From a bacterium (GTDB lineage Bacteria > Cyanobacteriota > Vampirovibrionia > Gastranaerophilales > Gastranaerophilaceae): 36,189 bases of DNA. Below the pieces are notes generated by a model. The model saw only the letters and a program-made list of their open reading frames with translations, did not search any database and was not told the DNA's origin. Numbering within the stretch: position 1 is the first letter of the stretch; every line of letters begins with the position of its first letter. Both the position numbers and the translations under genes were made by a program. Shown here piece by piece: positions 1 through 21,662 of this stretch. Where the stretch lies: assembly GCA_024408765.1 (NCBI GenBank), contig JAKSUR010000009.1, positions 1-36,189 on the forward strand, read 5' to 3'.

Positions 1-140
1 ATACGAGCTGCGTCTTCCGGTTTTAAACCGGGATCGTTGATTGCAACATACTCTATTTCATTGAAAATACCTTCTCTGATAGCTGCTCTCAATGTGTTTC
101 TTCCAATTCTTCCGAATCCGTTAATTGCTACTTTTACCAT
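1..140 (-). CDS. gapA: Glyceraldehyde-3-phosphate dehydrogenase, N-terminal part (cut by window edge)
   Basis: This is the first 46 codons of a minus-strand gene that runs off the left edge. The translation begins [20 protein letters not shown], the Rossmann NAD-binding start of type I GAPDH with its GFGRIGR dinucleotide loop, and continues to a VAINDPG segment after the second strand. GAPDH interconverts glyceraldehyde-3-phosphate and 1,3-bisphosphoglycerate in cytoplasmic glycolysis or gluconeogenesis. The ATG at 138-140 follows a good Shine-Dalgarno sequence (AAGGAG) 8-9 nt upstream. Catalytic Cys and His lie outside the window, so activity and exact type (glycolytic or NADP-linked) cannot be judged. 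The family call is very secure. Confidence 0.95.
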
Positions 141-184
141 AATTTTCACTCCTTCTTATTAGTAAAACTTCTCTTAACAGATTA

Positions 185-213
185 AGTGTAATGCAAACAC
201 AAAAAGTAATCAA
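185..213 (-). promoter_or_regulatory. Candidate sigma-70-type promoter for gapA
   Basis: Read on the minus strand, TTGATT (208-213) is followed after 17 nt by TACACT (185-190). This predicts a start site near 178 and a leader of about 38 nt that contains the gapA Shine-Dalgarno sequence. The rest of the 141-313 intergenic stretch is AT-rich and also holds TATAAT at 287-292 on the plus strand, a likely -10 for the divergent glycoside-hydrolase-like gene, with only a weak -35 (TTGTTT). No other structure is apparent there. Confidence 0.45.
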
Positions 214-322
214 GATAACATTTTATTTTACTGTTACATGTTCAAACATAAGGCTTTCTCTTATTGTTTTTATTTTTTAATAGACATATAATATTTTTGT
301 AACCGTTGGGGAAATGATTTTA

Positions 323-2155
323 ATGAAGAGAATAATTTGTTTTATATTTTTTGTAGTAGTATCTTTTTTTAGTCCGGTACTTGCCGGAAATTTGTTTGAA
401 GTGTATTCACCTGCAATAAATGAAATTGTGTTTAGAGAATCATCTTATCCACTTGATGTAATAGATCCCGTTGCTTCTACAAATTCTAATGGTGCAAACT
501 ATCCGGGGCTTCGTGGCGCAAATCAGCTTGTCGTGTATACCTCAGCATTTGGATTTCGCACGGGAACTAATGAATTTGGAACAGAAGCAATTATAAACGA
601 CGACACGGTTACATCACTTAGCGGTGCGGATTCCCTTATTCCTGTTAACGGTGCAGTTATAAGCGGTCATGGAAAGGCAAAATCATGGATTAACGAAAAT
701 GTTATGGTTGGTGCAAAAATATTTATTGATGTCGAAAATAAGACAATTACTTCTTATATTACTTCAGAAACATTTTTGTATGCGGCAAAAGAGCGAGTTA
801 AAGAAGTGCAGGAAATGCTGGCTTTTTATTGCAAAAATTGTTTAAATTATAACGGCAAACGCACAGAACAAAATTTAAGCAAAGCACAAGATTTTATTTA
901 CAAGGCACAAAATGATTCCGAGGATTCACAAAAATATTCTTCGAAAGCAATTGAGTACGCAAATCAAGCTATGTCAACTGTTGTTCCTTATGATTGTTCC
1001 GAGCTTAAAGGCGTTTGGATTCGACCGACTTATTACAATAAAAAAGATATCGAAACTGTTTTAGATAATATGCAAAGCATTGGTATTAATAATGTGTTTT
1101 TGGAAACTTATTATCACGGAAAAACAATATTCCCTTCAAGAACAATGGAAAAATATGGCTTTGTCAAGCAATATGAGGATTTCGTCGGATTTGATCCGCT
1201 AAAAACATGGATTAATGAAGCTCATAAAAGAGGAATAAAAGTTCATGTGTGGTTTCAAACTTTTTATGTCGGAAATACTCCTCCGGAAACAAATCCAATG
1301 TATATTCTTGCAGTACATCCAGAGTGGACTAACAGACAAAAGAAAAATGCATTTTCCGAGAAAATACCTTATTCGGTTTCTGAACATAACGGTTATTTTA
1401 TTGATCCGGCAAATCCTGATGTGCAAACATTTTTATATGAACTTTTGTGTGAAATCGTTAATCGCTACAAACCTGACGGTATAAATCTTGATTATATAAG
1501 GTATCCTCAATCCTTAACTCCGAATTATTCAAATTATGATTTATCAAACTGGGGTTATACAGAATATGCAAGAAATGAGTTTAGAGGGATATATGGAACT
1601 GATCCGATGGAAATTGATATCAATAATCCCTTATGGTCATATTGGAGATTTTACCGTATGTCAAAAATAACTGATTTTGTAAAAAAAATAAGTTATTTAT
1701 GCAGAAGTAACAAAGTAACTTTAACCACTGTAATATTTCCAAACAGGGCAAATGCAATAGATACAAAACTCCAAGATTGGAAAAGTTGGTCAATTAACAA
1801 TTTTGTTGACGGATTTACACCTCTGTTTTTAACCTGCGATGACAAAACTGAAGCTAATTTGGCAGAAGAAATCATACGCAACAAATCTGCTGCCACAAAA
1901 ATATATGCAGGTTTGTTTGTAACTTTTATGAACGGAGCTAATACTGATTTAATTAAGCAAATTCATACATCAAGAAAATATAATTTTAATGGTATTATTA
2001 TATTCGATTATGCCCATTTTGGCGAAAATTACGTTGATGTTTTAACTCAAAGTATATTAAAACCAAACGGTCGTGACATTGTTATAAGCGGTTCCGGCTA
2101 TAATAAACCTACAATCATTCAATTTAAATCAAGAGGTTCAGGGCGTGGAAGATAA
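323..2155 (+). CDS. Secreted family-10 glycoside-hydrolase-like protein (GHL10/DUF187)
   Basis: This is a 610-aa exported protein. Residues 1-22 form a Sec signal peptide (KR, a hydrophobic core, then PVLAG). Residues from about 230 to the C-terminus match the GHL10 (DUF187) TIM-barrel family: an L-K-G-V-W-I-R-P first strand, an F-L-E-T-Y strand, a G-I-K-V-H-V-W-F strand, then F-I-D-P-A and I-N-L-D-Y-I-R-Y-P strands. Proteins of this family are putative polysaccharide-acting enzymes of the envelope; the true substrate is unknown. A separate domain of about 200 residues precedes the barrel and includes a helical linker. An ATG three codons upstream (314) is possible, but GGGG lies only 2 nt before it; from 323 it lies 11 nt away. 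The 3' end overlaps the next gene by 11 bp. Confidence 0.8.
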   Translation: MKRIICFIFFVVVSFFSPVLAGNLFEVYSPAINEIVFRESSYPLDVIDPVASTNSNGANYPGLRGANQLVVYTSAFGFRTGTNEFGTEAIINDDTVTSLSGADSLIPVNGAVISGHGKAKSWINENVMVGAKIFIDVENKTITSYITSETFLYAAKERVKEVQEMLAFYCKNCLNYNGKRTEQNLSKAQDFIYKAQNDSEDSQKYSSKAIEYANQAMSTVVPYDCSELKGVWIRPTYYNKKDIETVLDNMQSIGINNVFLETYYHGKTIFPSRTMEKYGFVKQYEDFVGFDPLKTWINEAHKRGIKVHVWFQTFYVGNTPPETNPMYILAVHPEWTNRQKKNAFSEKIPYSVSEHNGYFIDPANPDVQTFLYELLCEIVNRYKPDGINLDYIRYPQSLTPNYSNYDLSNWGYTEYARNEFRGIYGTDPMEIDINNPLWSYWRFYRMSKITDFVKKISYLCRSNKVTLTTVIFPNRANAIDTKLQDWKSWSINNFVDGFTPLFLTCDDKTEANLAEEIIRNKSAATKIYAGLFVTFMNGANTDLIKQIHTSRKYNFNGIIIFDYAHFGENYVDVLTQSILKPNGRDIVISGSGYNKPTIIQFKSRGSGRGR

Positions 2156-5901: not shown

Positions 5902-6453
5902 ATGGATTCAATAAGTTTTAAGGCAAATTTAGTAAATAATGCAGTTATAAAATATCGCAAACCGAATAAATTATATAGCGATTTATCTGTGTCTATTGTC
6001 AGAATGACGAACACGAAAAGTGATCAGAATGCAATTCGTAAAATTGCAACTCTTTGGAGAAATATATCAGGCAAGCAAGAATATACTTTTGCTGATATAA
6101 TGTATCAAAGAGTCTTTAATCGTTCAAGTAAAATTATATATGCTTTAACAACTCAATCATCAAATTATAAAAAACTTTGTCCGGAAGAAGTGTTAGGTAT
6201 GGTTGAATTTAATCATAATAAAAAGAACTGCATTATTGACTGTGTGCAAACCCGACCTGATTGTATAAATTCTGAAAATAAGAATCCGTACAAAGGAATA
6301 GGAGCGGCAATGATGCTTTCTTTAATAAATTTAACAGATTGCAGAAAATTCTATCTATATTCAAAAGAGGAAACAATGAAATTTTATGAAAAATTAGGTT
6401 TTAAAGTCAGCAATCGAGAATTATCTTGTCCTTTAATGGTTTATGAAAAATAG
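5902..6453 (+). CDS. GNAT-like N-acetyltransferase with N-terminal FKAN tag
   Basis: This 183-aa protein ends in a recognisable GNAT core. Motif A appears as N-P-Y-K-G-I-G-A-A-M-M-L-S (about residues 128-140, acetyl-CoA pyrophosphate loop) and motif B as F-Y-E-K-L-G-F-K (161-168), preceded by a V-L-G-M-V-E-F strand. The first ten residues, MDSISFKANL, are not part of the fold. They resemble the N-terminal F-K-S tags of the two cargo proteins at 16.7-20.3 kb. The substrate is unknown. There is no Shine-Dalgarno site before the ATG and only AT-rich sequence upstream. It stands alone between divergent folC and the convergent hydrolase operon, whose stop lies 2 bp away. Confidence 0.7.
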   Translation: MDSISFKANLVNNAVIKYRKPNKLYSDLSVSIVRMTNTKSDQNAIRKIATLWRNISGKQEYTFADIMYQRVFNRSSKIIYALTTQSSNYKKLCPEEVLGMVEFNHNKKNCIIDCVQTRPDCINSENKNPYKGIGAAMMLSLINLTDCRKFYLYSKEETMKFYEKLGFKVSNRELSCPLMVYEK

Positions 6454-15923: not shown

Positions 15924-16760
15924 ATGTTAAAAGGACCTTTTTTAGACAGAAATTGGATGGGAGAAAATAAAAATTATAATACAGCAAATGTAATTATGCT
16001 CGGACTCCCGTTTGACGGAACTGTATCCTATCGTTCGGGATCAAGGTTTGCGCCCGAGCAAATAAGGCTTGCAAGTTGGGGGTTGGAAGAATATTCTCCT
16101 TATTTTGATAAACATTTACAGGATTGTAATTTCAATGATGTTGGAGATTTAGAATTTCCTCTCGGAAACACGGTAAAATCACTTGATTTAATAGAAGAAA
16201 ATGTAAAAAACATATACAAAGACGGGAAAAAAGTATTGGGAATCGGTGGCGAACATCTTGTTACACTTCCTGAAATTAAAGCAATAAAAGGTTTTTATGA
16301 CAATTTGGCAATTATACATTTTGATGCTCATACAGATTTAAGAGAAGAATATTTGGGCGAAAAACTTTCTCATTCTGCCGTAATTCGTCATTGCAGTGAA
16401 ATAATCGGGTTTGAAAATATTAAACAAATTGGTATTCGTTCAGGCATGAAAGACGAATTTGAGTTGATGAAAAAGTATAATACACTTGCAAAAAAATATG
16501 AAGATTTGGATATTTTAAGAGAAAAGAATGTATTTGTAACCGTTGATTTAGATGTTTTAGACACTTCAATTATGCCCGGGACAGGAACTCCTGAAGCCGG
16601 CGGTTTAAATTTTAATGAACTTATCGGTTGGTTTAAATATATAAAAGATTTTAATATAATAGGTGCGGATGTTGTGGAATTATCACCTGATTATGATGCA
16701 TCAGGCGTATCAACCGCAGTTGCCACCAAAGTCATCAGAGAAGTCCTCATGCTTTTCTAA
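15924..16760 (+). CDS. speB: Agmatinase-family ureohydrolase
   Basis: This 278-aa ureohydrolase-fold enzyme probably splits agmatine into putrescine and urea. Metal ligands are seen in G-G-E-H (residues 108-111, Glu replacing the usual Asp), F-D-A-H-T-D-L-R (134-138) and V-D-L-D-V-L-D (Asp208, Asp210). The loop T-G-T-P-E-A-G-G-L is typical of agmatinases over arginases. AAGGAG sits 6 nt upstream. It is 12 bp downstream of mutS. A copy of the last 220 bp, with 12 differences, recurs at 18512-18731, and the minus-strand HNH-like gene overlaps its last 51 bp. Formimidoylglutamase or a guanidino-acid hydrolase are alternatives. Confidence 0.85.
   Translation: MLKGPFLDRNWMGENKNYNTANVIMLGLPFDGTVSYRSGSRFAPEQIRLASWGLEEYSPYFDKHLQDCNFNDVGDLEFPLGNTVKSLDLIEENVKNIYKDGKKVLGIGGEHLVTLPEIKAIKGFYDNLAIIHFDAHTDLREEYLGEKLSHSAVIRHCSEIIGFENIKQIGIRSGMKDEFELMKKYNTLAKKYEDLDILREKNVFVTVDLDVLDTSIMPGTGTPEAGGLNFNELIGWFKYIKDFNIIGADVVELSPDYDASGVSTAVATKVIREVLMLF
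16541..16760. repeat. Tandem-unit repeat A, left copy (speB 3' end)
   Basis: This is the 3' 220 bp of intact speB. It aligns without gaps to 18512-18731 with 12 mismatches (94.5% identity by my count). Three mismatches are non-synonymous (N to S, G to S, K to N) and the rest silent. It marks the left edge of the first of two consecutive cargo units. Confidence 0.9.
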
Positions 16761-18263
16761 AATATTTTCATATTCACTTGATACGTTATTAATTTCATCA
16801 TCAGGTGTATAGCTTTCAAAAAATTTTAAATCTTTTTGATTTTTTGTAATAAATGCTTTTAGTTCTTTTATTTGAAGTTCATTATTTAAAATTATTTTAT
16901 TATCTTCACAATGACTTTGTTGAGCAATTTTAAGATTTTGCATTTCAAGTTTTTTTATTTTTAATAAATTCTTTTTTATTTTATCTTCTGTTAATTTTGT
17001 AATATTTATCATGTAATCGCCAATATTTGGATTAATTGCACCATTTGTATAGCTGTTTAACTTGCCGGCTACTATAATTGGCCAACGAACAAGTGCTTCG
17101 TCTTTGATTTGACCGTTCAAAATTCTGGTCATTATACTATCAATTTGTTTTTGGATATAGCCATTTACTTCAGGATGGAATTTTATATATTCATCATCGC
17201 ATTTTTGATTTCCTTTTGCGGAATTACACATTTTACACATTATGATAGTATTGTAAACATTATCTTTACCACCTCTTGATAGGGGAATGATACGACTGCC
17301 TGTACTTCCAAACGCTCCTATAATATTGTTTAAAATTTCAGCATCGCTCCAATTGTCGTCATGTGCTGTAATAAAGAAATCATATTCGGTAGGATATTCC
17401 GCATTTATTTGTTCGAGTTCTTCCATAACCATACTCTTTATATCTTGATATGGCTCGGACTTTAGTGCTTCGTCATATAATTTTTTAATTTTTAAGATTA
17501 TAGTATTATTATTTTTTTCGGTATATATAATATTTTTTGCTTTCATTTCAATTGACATAAAATATAAAAAATCTTTACGATTTTCGGGGCTAATAATTTT
17601 TAATATTTTATCAAAATGATAATTTAATTTATTATAAAAATTCTTTGATGCTGATTCATCATTAGCTTTGTTTGCATTGTATATTTCATCCATTTGAATT
17701 ATTTCTGACAGTGTTTTATCAGGATATTTTTTTGCATAAACATCCAATTGCTCGTAAGCACGCAATGGTGAGCCATCTAAATATTTTTTGAATTTATTAC
17801 AGTTGTTCATAATCATATTAGCAGATAAAAGTTCTTTACGAGAATCGAACAACATTTTCTTAAATGAATGTTTGGCAAATCTTTCGGTATCATAGTTATT
17901 ATCAGATTTGTTAATAGCTTCTTTTGAAAATAAATTTCTTACTTTTTGGTAATTTTGTTCATCACTTTGCAAGATTGTATCTAAAGAATCATTAGGATAT
18001 TGTTTTGAAAGCTGATTCAATATATTCCAAAGATTTGGCTTCTCTTTCCATTGTTCCATAAAACCTTTTCTAATCATTTCGGATAATGGCTTGGCTATTT
18101 CGCTGAATGTTTTTGCTAAACTATCTAAACGAATAACTTTTCGGTTACAAATTGCACAATTCATATTAATATTATGCAATGTTTTATAGTTGCGATAACT
18201 GGCGTGGAAACAAATTTTGTTATATTTACTTTTAAAAATAGGTCTATTTACTGATATGTCCAT
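16710..18263 (-). CDS. Cargo gene 1: FKS-tagged protein with split, degenerate HNH-like zinc motif
   Basis: This is a 517-aa protein with no signal peptide or TM segment. An N-terminal tag R-P-I-F-K-S-K (residues 7-13) is followed by C-A-I-C (36-39). A long helical region (about 45-290) separates this from the HNH-like segment S-R-I-I-P-L-S-R-G-G (323-332), N-V-Y-N, C-K-M-C-N-S-A-K-G-N (343-352). In ordinary HNH nucleases the first cysteine pair lies close to a D-H-I-x-P motif; here it is more than 280 residues away and D-H reads S-R. The zinc fold may form without catalysis. The C-terminal 17 codons and stop are read from the antisense strand of speB. GGAGG lies 13 nt before the ATG. It occupies the same slot as the gene at 18753-20333. 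Confidence 0.7.
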   Translation of the reverse strand: MDISVNRPIFKSKYNKICFHASYRNYKTLHNINMNCAICNRKVIRLDSLAKTFSEIAKPLSEMIRKGFMEQWKEKPNLWNILNQLSKQYPNDSLDTILQSDEQNYQKVRNLFSKEAINKSDNNYDTERFAKHSFKKMLFDSRKELLSANMIMNNCNKFKKYLDGSPLRAYEQLDVYAKKYPDKTLSEIIQMDEIYNANKANDESASKNFYNKLNYHFDKILKIISPENRKDFLYFMSIEMKAKNIIYTEKNNNTIILKIKKLYDEALKSEPYQDIKSMVMEELEQINAEYPTEYDFFITAHDDNWSDAEILNNIIGAFGSTGSRIIPLSRGGKDNVYNTIIMCKMCNSAKGNQKCDDEYIKFHPEVNGYIQKQIDSIMTRILNGQIKDEALVRWPIIVAGKLNSYTNGAINPNIGDYMINITKLTEDKIKKNLLKIKKLEMQNLKIAQQSHCEDNKIILNNELQIKELKAFITKNQKDLKFFESYTPDDEINNVSSEYENILEKHEDFSDDFGGNCG

Positions 18264-18376
18264 TTTTAGGCTTATTCCTCCAGTATTTAAAAATTTCTGA
18301 TATGGATAGTTTAATTGTGTTGTTTATTTTCATAATACTTTCCATAATAATTATTCTAAATCTTATAAAAATAATT

Positions 18377-18511
18377 TTTGCTAATTGATATATAAAAAAT
18401 TTGAAATAGTTAAAAATGTATTATAAAATATTTTATATACAGACAAGGAGAGGTTAATGAGAAGATTTTTTAAAACAGGATTGGTAGTTGCGTCATTTAT
18501 GTATTTATCAC
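18377..18511. repeat. Tandem-unit repeat B, left copy (ctpA promoter and first 18 codons)
   Basis: The 135 bp are identical to 20377-20511 except for one base (T at 18498 against A at 20498). The repeat includes the ctpA promoter, Shine-Dalgarno and first codons. Weaker ungapped similarity continues left to about 18351. The right end is the fusion point to speB sequence. Confidence 0.92.
18401..18429 (+). promoter_or_regulatory. Duplicated ctpA-type promoter now facing cargo 2 antisense
   Basis: TTGAAA, 17 nt, TAAAAT is an exact copy of the ctpA promoter at 20401-20429. It would drive rightward RNA through the 21-codon ctpA remnant and the speB fragment into the antisense strand of cargo gene 2. 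Confidence 0.5.
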
Positions 18512-18522
18512 CGTTGATTTAG
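18457..18522 (+). pseudogene. ctpA 5' remnant fused out of frame to speB
   Basis: This remnant starts at an intact ATG with AAGGAGAGG upstream and encodes the first 18 residues of the CtpA signal peptide (one substitution, L14F). It crosses the junction at 18511/18512, reads three residues (P-L-I) in the wrong frame of speB and stops at TAG. The peptide of 21 residues is a truncated signal sequence and almost certainly not functional, though the translation signals remain intact. Confidence 0.8.
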
Positions 18523-18731
18523 ATGTTTTAGATACTTCAATTATGCCCGGGACAGGAACTCCGGAAGCCGGCGGTTTGAGTTTTAACGAGTTAATCAGTT
18601 GGTTTAATTATATAAAAGATTTTAATATAATAGGTGCGGATGTTGTGGAATTATCACCTGATTATGATGCATCAGGCGTATCAACCGCAGTCGCCACCAA
18701 AGTCATCAGAGAAGTCCTCATGCTTTTTTAA
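18512..18731 (+). pseudogene. speB 3' fragment (tandem-unit repeat A, right copy)
   Basis: This fragment encodes the last 73 codons of the agmatinase with the natural stop. It lacks the N-terminal 205 residues, including G-G-E-H and D-A-H-T-D, and cannot be active. An open frame from an internal ATG (18543) exists only because the coding sequence is still little changed. It is not in frame with the ctpA remnant to its left. Most of the 12 differences from the intact copy are silent, so it derives from a functional gene of a related lineage, or has changed little since duplication. Confidence 0.9.
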
Positions 18732-18752
18732 GTGCCTTTCTCCACGGATGAA

Positions 18753-20333
18753 TTACCATATGGCACATTCACAATATAAATCCGTTAATTTCCATATGTC
18801 GTGCAAAAAGGAAGTATCACCTGTTTTTCCTGCCTTTTCAAGCATTTCTATTATAGGCCGGATATTAATTTCATTTAATCTAAGCTTATGTGGTGGCTCA
18901 ATATACTGTCTATCTTCAAGTCTATAATGATTATGGTATTCCGCAACACGTGAGCTCCAAGGCAGTATATAATTTATGAGCTCTTCACATATACCAGAAC
19001 CAAATACTTTAATCCATAAGTTTGGATACTCGGCAATTTTATTAACTATAACTTGAGCCTTATATGAATAGTTGTCATATAACAATCCGGAAAGCATATC
19101 ATCTATGATTTTTTTTAATTTTTCCTTCTGATCTATTAAATCAGGATATTTTTCAATTGTCTCTACCAGTTTATTACAAAGTTTATCGAGGGCATAACTA
19201 TCGGTACTACTACGATCCCAACTCTTAAACCAATCGTAAATTATTTTTTCAATTATTTTGTGTCGATCTGCAAATTTTTTTTCATAATTGTCTATATGAA
19301 CACTCATCTTTGTTTTTTGATTCTTGTTAATATTAAGTTTAACTAATTCTTTATATAACAGATAACGTTGCCGGTCTGTTCCACACAGATTTGAACTATA
19401 ATCGAGCATTTCCGATGATAAATCATATAGCAAAGGGATGTCCTCCGGTGATTTCATTAAAGTATCATGATTATTTACATGCTTTGAAGCTAATACCAAT
19501 CTATCATTGTATTCCTGAGGCAGGCTATTTTTAATTGAATTAATTATTTGGGTTTTTTGATTATCAGGTAAATATTGCAAAACATAATCTAAAACATTTA
19601 ATCTATCGTTGTCTTTTGCATTATAAATTTTAAATAACATATTTGGATTTTCTTTAAAAATAGTATTCAAGCTTTCGATAAATTTAGGGTTAAAATTATT
19701 TTTCTGTCCGCTTATTAATTTTGATAATACAGGTGTATTATCTTCACCAACCTTTGTTGTATATAAATCAAACAAACCATTTGTATCATTCTGTTTTATA
19801 TAGATATCATTTAAATTTTTTAAGGTGTTATACGATATTAAATCATTATTATTAATTCTGTTAATAAGAGCATCTTTTTCTTTGTTTTGAGGATATAATT
19901 TATTTTCAAGTTTATCTATTTCTACTTTCTGCTGATATATTATATTTTTATCATTATTGATTGTTGACTTCAAACTGTTTATCGTTTCGGTATCTTTAAT
20001 TACATTAGATTCAAAATCATTTAATAACATATCTTCACGTTTTTTATTCTTATTTACAATTAGACCTGTTCCGACAGCAGAGGTTGTTGCTAAACCAATT
20101 CCGAGATATTTAGCAGTATTATTGTTATCATTATTAGCCAGATACCCGCCGACCATTGCTGATAAAACGCATATTGCCGAATAAATGAAATTGCGTGGTC
20201 TTTTTACGATATTAACGCTTGTTTTCGATTGAAGTGCAGTATGAGTTAAGTTACTTTTAAAATTCGGATTATTTTGATTTGCATACTCATTTTTATAATA
20301 GTTTTTTAAATTTGATGTGCTGTCTATTTTCAT
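18753..20333 (-). CDS. Cargo gene 2: FKS-tagged protein with two TM segments and coiled coil
   Basis: This is a 526-aa protein of unknown function. I start it at ATG 20331-20333 because AGGAGGT lies 3-4 nt upstream; the frame is open seven codons further. The tag N-P-N-F-K-S-N-L lies at residues 22-29. Two hydrophobic segments (about 49-65, F-I-Y-S-A-I-C-V-L-S; and 76-93, Y-L-G-I-G-L-A-T-T-S) form a hairpin. A charged coiled coil (about 100-160) and a long helical region rich in Asn/Lys follow, ending C-E-C-A-I-W. No catalytic motif is recognised. It is similar in length and orientation to cargo gene 1 and occupies the equivalent position between an speB end and a ctpA start, but I see no convincing sequence similarity between them beyond the tag. 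Confidence 0.68.
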   Translation of the reverse strand: MKIDSTSNLKNYYKNEYANQNNPNFKSNLTHTALQSKTSVNIVKRPRNFIYSAICVLSAMVGGYLANNDNNNTAKYLGIGLATTSAVGTGLIVNKNKKREDMLLNDFESNVIKDTETINSLKSTINNDKNIIYQQKVEIDKLENKLYPQNKEKDALINRINNNDLISYNTLKNLNDIYIKQNDTNGLFDLYTTKVGEDNTPVLSKLISGQKNNFNPKFIESLNTIFKENPNMLFKIYNAKDNDRLNVLDYVLQYLPDNQKTQIINSIKNSLPQEYNDRLVLASKHVNNHDTLMKSPEDIPLLYDLSSEMLDYSSNLCGTDRQRYLLYKELVKLNINKNQKTKMSVHIDNYEKKFADRHKIIEKIIYDWFKSWDRSSTDSYALDKLCNKLVETIEKYPDLIDQKEKLKKIIDDMLSGLLYDNYSYKAQVIVNKIAEYPNLWIKVFGSGICEELINYILPWSSRVAEYHNHYRLEDRQYIEPPHKLRLNEINIRPIIEMLEKAGKTGDTSFLHDIWKLTDLYCECAIW

Positions 20334-20376
20334 ATTACCTCCTATGATAGTCATTCTAAAAACTCTAAAAAAAATA

Positions 20377-20511
20377 TTTGCTAATTGATATATAAAAAAT
20401 TTGAAATAGTTAAAAATGTATTATAAAATATTTTATATACAGACAAGGAGAGGTTAATGAGAAGATTTTTTAAAACAGGATTGGTAGTTGCGTCATTAAT
20501 GTATTTATCAC
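20377..20511. repeat. Tandem-unit repeat B, right copy (ctpA promoter and first 18 codons)
   Basis: This is the native position of the ctpA 5' end. It matches 18377-18511 at 134 of 135 positions. The repeat copies are exactly 2000 bp apart. Confidence 0.92.
20401..20429 (+). promoter_or_regulatory. Promoter of ctpA
   Basis: TTGAAA (20401-20406), 17-nt spacer, TAAAAT (20424-20429), with a start site predicted near 20436 and the AAGGAGAGG ribosome-binding site in a leader of about 20 nt. It probably drives ctpA-recJ and the following membrane gene. It is divergent from cargo gene 2. Confidence 0.55.
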
Positions 20512-21662
20512 TTAATACGGCTTTTGCCGCTACTCCTGCCGAGCTTTATGATGATGTTTGGAAATTGGTTAATAAAAAATATTATGATCCTTCTAACAAT
20601 TCGCAAGACTGGGCAAAATGGAGATACAGATATGACCACAAATTAAAAACAGCTGATGACGCTTATGTTGCAATAGATACAATGCTTGCAAGCCTTAATG
20701 ATCCGTATACAAGATTTCTGCAACCAAAAGAATTTTCGGAAGAAACTCAATCAATAAAAGGTTCTTTAAAAGGTATCGGAACTCAAATCGGTTTAAGAGA
20801 TGGAAATTTGGTTATTATTGCACCATTGGAAGATTCTCCAGCTGAAAAAGCAGGACTGCAAGCTGATGATCAAATTTTGGAAATCAACGGTGAAAGCACA
20901 AAAGGAATCAATATAGATGCTGCTGCGGATAAAATCAGAGGAGAAAAGGGTACTACCGTAACACTTTTAATTCAGAGAAAAGGTGTTCCCAATAAATTAT
21001 ATAGTATTATAAGAGATGAAATTGAAATAAAATCAGTTTCTTGTAAACCTCCGTTTGAAACGAGTGTTATCCCTAATGATATTCAATACATCAGGCTAAG
21101 TTCTTTTATGAGTAAGAATGCAGCCTCGGAAATTGAAACCATTTTAAATTCGGCAACCGATAAAAAAGGGTTTATACTGGATTTACGCTCCAATCCCGGA
21201 GGGCTTTTAACGAATGCAATTTATATATCTGACATGCTTTTAAATGGCGGAGTAATTGTAAGTACTGTTGACAGGGACAGATATAAAAGTACAACGAGGG
21301 CAAGATATTCACAAACAACCCAAAAGCCCATTGTTGTATTAATTAATAAGGGTTCGGCTTCTGCCAGCGAAATTTTGAGCGGTGCTTTGAAAGATAACCA
21401 TAGAGCTACAATTGTAGGTGAACAATCTTTCGGTAAAGGTCTTGTGCAAGAGATAAACAAACTTCCTGATGAAGCAGGCATGAATATTACTATTCAAAGG
21501 TATTTGACACCATCAGGTGCGGATATTCATAAAAAAGGCATAACTCCTGATATTATGGTAGAATTAACTAAAGAGAATATCGAAGCAAAAGATGATGTTC
21601 AATTAAAAAAAGCTATTGAAGTATTGAAAGAGATAACATGCCTTGCACAACTGAATGGATAA
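20457..21662 (+). CDS. ctpA: Carboxy-terminal processing protease (S41 family)
   Basis: This 401-aa exported serine protease cleaves envelope proteins near their C-termini; in photosynthetic cyanobacteria the family matures PsbA, but a general role is expected here. A signal peptide (residues 1-24, ending T-A-F-A) is followed by an N-terminal helical domain, a PDZ domain (about 100-180, with G-S-L-K-G-I-G-T-Q-I-G and S-P-A-E-K-A-G-L) and the S41 core. The core shows L-D-L-R-S-N-P-G-G-L, the nucleophile in G-S-A-S-A-S-E (299-305), and general base Lys327 in F-G-K-G-L-V-Q. The last 25 bp overlap recJ. Its first 18 codons and promoter are duplicated 2 kb upstream. Confidence 0.95.
   Translation: MRRFFKTGLVVASLMYLSLNTAFAATPAELYDDVWKLVNKKYYDPSNNSQDWAKWRYRYDHKLKTADDAYVAIDTMLASLNDPYTRFLQPKEFSEETQSIKGSLKGIGTQIGLRDGNLVIIAPLEDSPAEKAGLQADDQILEINGESTKGINIDAAADKIRGEKGTTVTLLIQRKGVPNKLYSIIRDEIEIKSVSCKPPFETSVIPNDIQYIRLSSFMSKNAASEIETILNSATDKKGFILDLRSNPGGLLTNAIYISDMLLNGGVIVSTVDRDRYKSTTRARYSQTTQKPIVVLINKGSASASEILSGALKDNHRATIVGEQSFGKGLVQEINKLPDEAGMNITIQRYLTPSGADIHKKGITPDIMVELTKENIEAKDDVQLKKAIEVLKEITCLAQLNG

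Follow-up and report, generated by a model that had tools for sequence, protein, structure and literature searches.

The stretch of DNA analysed here (the window; 36,189 nucleotides of contig JAKSUR010000009.1, assembly GCA_024408765.1, from a member of the Gastranaerophilaceae) encodes, between speB and ctp, a protein that carries the four zinc cysteines of an HNH nuclease in two widely separated pairs, and serine and arginine in place of the catalytic residues. HNH domains are among the commonest nuclease folds and are normally compact, with both zinc knuckles lying within a few dozen residues of each other. The locus raises two questions, namely whether the distant cysteine pairs can form one zinc site and whether the protein still cuts. 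The gene, the parts of its product and the flanking genes are:

15924 to 16760, plus strand: speB (arginase/agmatinase family), convergent with the split-HNH gene, whose 3' end it overlaps with its own by 51 nt.
16710 to 18263, minus strand: the split-HNH gene (cargo 1), from the ATG at 18263 to the stop at 16710, encoding 517 aa.
18129 to 18188, minus strand: region of the first zinc knuckle, residues 26-45, with C36 and C39 at 18147-18158.
17310 to 18128, minus strand: predicted helical insertion of 273 residues (46-318; DSSP on the model), leading from the first knuckle to the beta-beta-alpha core.
17208 to 17309, minus strand: beta-beta-alpha core, residues 319-352 (strands 319-324 and 339-343, helix 344-350), from the Pfam match and the model.
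17292 to 17297, minus strand: S323-R324 in the position of the catalytic E/D-H, from residue check and alignments.
17223 to 17252, minus strand: N338 to N347, including the second knuckle C343xxC346, from residue check and alignment.
16809 to 17021, minus strand: long C-terminal helices, residues 415-485, in the model.
20457 to 21662, plus strand: ctp, an S41 peptidase with a PDZ domain (Pfam).

Direct inspection of the translation confirmed the residues on which the initial annotation had relied: the zinc cysteines as C36/C39 and C343/C346, the sequence S-R-I-I-P (S323, R324, I325, I326, P327) in the motif position, and the retained N338 and C-x-x-C-N (ending in N347). The two C-x-x-C motifs, starting at residues 36 and 343, are the only ones in the protein, which also contains H301-D302-D303. 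Among the nuclease models in Pfam, only HNH ones match: PF01844 (HNH) scores 23.6 bits against a cut-off of 21.4, over residues 325-353 only, which makes the protein a member of this family, and PF14279 (HNH_5) stays below its cut-off (25.1 versus 27.5). With PF01844 above its cut-off and both pairs of cysteines shared by relatives, the motif is not a chance resemblance, and we ruled out chance C-x-x-C pairs. The NCBIfam IscB model reaches 22.8 bits against a cut-off of 175, over residues 325-373 only, so that the protein does not appear to belong to the Cas9/IscB group. PHROGs matches of the protein and its relatives are mostly to HNH models and lie over the HNH core; none of the PADLOC families matched the window protein, with scattered weak matches for some relatives. 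From residue 324 onward the protein follows the ordinary HNH core register, and the distances from R324 to N338 (14 residues) and from N338 to C343 (5 residues) equal those of H54-N68-C73 in the Gme HNHE enzyme, as given in the available text of PMC3765158. The first knuckle alone is displaced: C41 and D53 of Gme HNHE are 12 residues apart in the same text, whereas 284 residues separate C39 from S323.

Searches for homologues placed the protein in a family with members in 146 of 152 Gastranaerophilales genomes, as against 0 of 187 other Cyanobacteriota (E <= 1e-15), within a phylum sample of 339 in which six members of the order had no match and the kinship of 173 non-matching genomes was read from the sort order. 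A search with the window protein itself hit 70 of 115 related genomes; profile A2 (29 rows) hit 366 of the 383 genomes of the order at E <= 1e-6, a lenient level that may take in unrelated HNH proteins. In the samples searched, the split-HNH family is restricted to Gastranaerophilales, an order of non-photosynthetic cyanobacteria of the gut. The literature searched held no description of it, and a phage origin was set aside after a scan of viral contigs with profile A4 returned no relative. The window's own genome, a draft of 1.58 Mb in which the window is contig C103, has three members, namely the window protein and two others, on contigs C82 and C25, that keep E-H and have neither knuckle complete. 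Among four close members, dN/dS is 0.10-0.16 in four of six pairs (dS being saturated, and the other two pairs not computable) versus 0.02-0.04 for ctp, which marks the family as functional but fast-evolving. Nearly every genome of a gut order carries it, and its function is testable.

The wide spacing of the knuckles recurs throughout this family. In alignment A1 (19 members), C36, C39 and C346 are invariant and position 343 is C or H; Y180, P181, E187, I310, G332, N338 and P395 are invariant as well. We then counted knuckles after collapsing identical or overlapping sequences. A first set of 96 complete members (one fragment, L014, of the 97 being left out) contained 72 with both knuckles, 24 with neither and none with a mixture, explained by a single change on the tree. 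With more subfamilies added, and with the first knuckle scored as kept if it read C..C or C..H and the second if it read C..C or H..C, the 141 of 152 members complete at both ends comprised 101 with both, 36 with neither and four with the first only, three of these four reading C-x-x-D at the second. The two knuckles thus share one fate in 137 of 141 relatives, though their co-loss represents few independent events (two changes on the tree for knuckle 1, four for knuckle 2). The spacer measures 176-291 residues in 83 of the 96 members, those with both ends readable, and 283 in the window protein. Judged from these alignments, the split is a trait of the family and not a peculiarity of the window protein. 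Members of a CPYxG subfamily (L020, L023, L032, L002 and others) have lost three of the four zinc cysteines and keep E-H; they are possibly zinc-free HNH proteins.

At the catalytic position, E/D-H is kept in 138 of the 141 members, including all 36 without knuckles, where it reads E-H; on this ground we regard the active site of the family as constrained. The initial annotation had expected D-H at this point: the column is indeed replaced in the window protein, but the family consensus is E-H and only sometimes D-H. An HNH family that keeps its active site despite an insertion of 176-291 residues between the knuckles would show how far the zinc site can be separated from catalysis, and the knuckle-less members that keep E-H bear on the same point. 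Three proteins lack E/D-H: the window protein, with S-R, and the products of L080 and L164, a tandem pair between ctp and speB in genome G064, one with K-R and the other with K-S. The G064 proteins have lost other core residues too. One of them is 23% identical to the window protein, and the window protein's nearest relative, L004, has E-H, so that the losses look independent; the smaller, 96-member tree likewise places two changes at E/D-H. E/D-H is absent in 3 of the 17 core-subfamily members versus 0 of the 79 others (Fisher test, relatedness ignored). Of the conserved columns, 42 of 56 are intact in the window protein and 48 of 54 in L004.

In GVE2 HNHE the mutation H93A abolishes nicking, according to the available text of PMC5304195, and since it is the general-base histidine that is lost, the window protein is expected not to cut. 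Having lost both this histidine and the acidic metal ligand, the window copy should be inactive by analogy with known HNH mutants, and from its residues it is most likely a catalytically dead nuclease. The earlier proposal of a non-cutting derivative of a nuclease is in this respect likely to be right, and a dead copy would serve as a natural negative control. Relatives with E/D-H, on the other hand, are probably active and would use a divalent metal to nick or cut nucleic acid; recognition or oligomerisation may be the task of their helical insertion and of the helices at the C-terminus. Our preferred reading, held with moderate confidence, is that the protein is an inactive member of an order-restricted, split-zinc HNH family, present at speB-ctp as a decaying copy or a nucleic-acid-binding remnant, and that it most likely survives in one of these two forms.

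The intact reading frame and the retention of all four cysteines, N338 and N347 are as compatible with a retained function as with recent decay. The same features would be expected if the dead HNH had taken on a new task in nucleic-acid binding or blocking, perhaps as a decoy or inhibitor of active alleles, and were kept by selection. It also suits this account that all three members without E/D-H belong to the speB-locus subfamily and that the family evolves fast (median amino-acid identity 30% for the cargo, versus 81% for speB and 87% for ctp). Against it, the three proteins share no common replacement (SR, KR and KS), and the G064 pair has lost other core residues; we consider selective recruitment unlikely.

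As to the surroundings of the gene, every one of the 17 complete core-subfamily members adjoins speB, ctp or both, and is convergent with speB where the two share a contig. Three genomes (G047, G010 and G026) have cargo-less loci in which speB and ctp are adjacent, less than 100 bp apart; elsewhere in the genus, many genomes showed no ctp in the stretch of up to 6 kb examined downstream of speB. Judging by its sequences, the speB-ctp locus is fast-evolving, and its cargo would be exchanged and stacked. Four genomes have a contig that ends where the cargo locus meets speB or ctp (L192/L193 in G059, L175/L176 in G048, L213 in G016 and L214 in G038), which suggests strain variation there. In G059, contig C13 runs as far as the speB stop and shares exactly 141 nt with the beginning of C52; in G016 the contig breaks off 59 nt upstream of ctp, and in G038 95 nt upstream of it.

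In the window, a second cargo gene and copies of both flanks lie between cargo 1 and ctp:

18316 to 18511, plus strand: duplicate of the start of ctp (upstream region plus first codons), matching 20316-20511 at 92% identity and almost identical from about 18378.
18499 to 18731, plus strand: repeat of the speB 3' end, with 94% identity to 16528-16760.
18753 to 20354, minus strand: cargo 2, a 533-aa protein unrelated to cargo 1 (reading frame and Pfam).

Between speB and ctp, the interval 16528-20511 thus contains a stack of two cargo genes that are not related to each other. At about 18499-18511 the second speB copy joins the ctp fragment around AATGTATTT, a short sequence that both parents contain. 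The speB copies differ in 12 codons, eight of them synonymously, where 77% non-synonymous changes would be expected (p 0.0017). Because of this synonymous excess, the second copy looks like the allele of another strain and not like a decayed duplicate. The layout would result if a circularised piece (speB 3' end, cargo, ctp 5' end) had arrived and integrated, and also from a tandem duplication followed by exchange; given the contig ends in G059, G016 and G038, an assembly artefact joining two strains may also be the source of the stacked cargo. Cargo 2 has no Pfam match above cut-off that would point to a function, and its relatives are confined to one of 65 genomes of the genus (its own) and three of 239 in the family, again including its own, the other two being weak.

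Cargo 1 and cargo 2 share an N-terminal F-K-(A/S) motif with the protein encoded at 5902-6453 of the window and with that at 895-2070 of L221, some of these proteins being unrelated. Within the HNH family, F[KG][AGS] is enriched about ten times 15-30 residues before Cys36 (13 in 1410 residues) and occurs within 60 residues before Cys36 in 14 of 96 members. It is possibly a sorting signal; as an export signal it was set aside as too weak at this frequency.

Two further readings give the locus a more active part. In the first, which is speculative and in our view unlikely, the gut order would possess a private nuclease family with a helical sensor inside the HNH zinc site, where binding to the insertion opens or closes the active site; active and dead versions would make up a hypervariable conflict locus at speB-ctp, with dead copies as blockers or immunity-like partners. 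In the second, the split-HNH nuclease would be a selfish, homing-like element that inserts at speB-ctp, and the dead copy a stage of decay in a homing cycle. The constant site of the core members, the cargo-less loci, an interrupted split-HNH copy in G059 and the flank duplications in the window are what such an element would leave. However, cargo distances track those of ctp (Mantel r 0.64, p 0.0004, 12 genomes) and of speB (Mantel r 0.65, 14 genomes), and the cargo therefore appears to be mostly inherited in place, diverging fast. Paralogues elsewhere, moreover, are mostly not at the speB-ctp site, and we rate a homing-like element as rather improbable.

There remains the first question, that of the zinc site. 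The AlphaFold2 model of the window protein (mean pLDDT 84.0, pTM 0.77) consists of helices and two strands (319-324 and 339-343) followed by a helix at 344-350, and so contains a beta-beta-alpha arrangement. Foldseek gave no match at E <= 0.001 for this model or for that of the compact relative L077 (pLDDT 84.0, pTM 0.78), and the VIA-align comparison is a second look at Foldseek's own candidates only. In it, residues 19..408 of the window model superpose on the HNH domain of AceCas9 (8d2k, 557..673) with 113 residues aligned, an rmsd of 3.3 and a Z of 10.0, values of 8-10 lying in the chance range for helical models. The matched stretch of AceCas9 is a contiguous 117 residues; since 310-408 of the model holds 99 residues only, at least 14 aligned residues come from before residue 310. 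Most other matches of the window model concern the long helices at 413-496. For L077, the first two matches are AnaCas9 (4oge/4ogc; Z 8.3 and 8.0, within the same chance range), with 41..328/329 on 549..665/666, and 15 of the best 50 are Cas9 HNH domains, all beginning at model residue 41-47. The zinc ligands of AnaCas9 are Cys566, Cys569, Cys602 and Cys605; residues 58 and 61 of L077 would coincide with 566 and 569 only where the alignment begins without a gap.

The Cas9 superposition, together with the co-occurrence of the knuckles, supports a single zinc site shared by both C-x-x-C pairs and interrupted by a helical insertion, and bears out the large helical insertion within the zinc fold that the initial annotation had envisaged. 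A helical domain of roughly 180-290 residues would separate the first knuckle from the beta-beta-alpha core, and the C-x-x-C near the N-terminus would fold back to complete the site with the C-terminal one. The four cysteines are present and co-vary; their joint site is a prediction from the superposition. It could also be that the pairs are independent, the N-terminal one belonging to another small zinc site or to none. HMM alignments to PDB chains do stop short of the first knuckle, even with the HNH parts joined: profile A7, built from both, matched PDB chains and Pfam models over the C-terminal core only, and therefore neither supports nor excludes the first knuckle. The predicted fit to a contiguous Cas9 HNH and the shared fate of the knuckles argue against independence, which we find quite improbable.

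That the protein still cuts, with His301 or with Asn338/Asn347 in a different metal arrangement, is very improbable: His301, N338 and N347 are present, but the mutant evidence cited above speaks against activity, and the substitution by His301 proposed initially was rejected because its column varies in A1 (with H, K, Y, R or M). In L004, L005 and L008 a histidine stands there beside an intact E-H, so that its origin is not a compensation for the missing catalytic residue.

Among known proteins, the HNH domains of type II-C Cas9 (AceCas9, AnaCas9) offer a close structural parallel, with the same beta-beta-alpha core and two cysteine knuckles; the models superpose on them over 109-113 residues, with the N-terminal part included, and the asparagine after the last cysteine is shared with AnaCas9 Asn606, according to the available text of PMC5304195. 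The Cas9 domain is contiguous, whereas that of the window protein is interrupted by about 270 residues, and the window protein, unlike Cas9, has no RuvC domain found with Pfam and no Asp/Glu-His pair. Gme HNHE (Gmet_0936, 4h9d), a Mn-dependent HNH nicking enzyme and the best single PDB match of the joined profile, has the same family register of D/E-H, N and CxxCN. The available text of PMC3765158 gives it an overall length of about 110 residues, within which Cys38/41 and Cys73/76 lie near each other; it has no helical insertion and an intact active site, and differs from the window protein in both. Relatives within the Gastranaerophilales (for example L004, L063 and L077) have the split knuckles and the helical insertion of the window protein and, unlike it, E-H or D-H. 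The window carries a probably inactive copy of an HNH family whose zinc site is predicted to be split by a helical domain.
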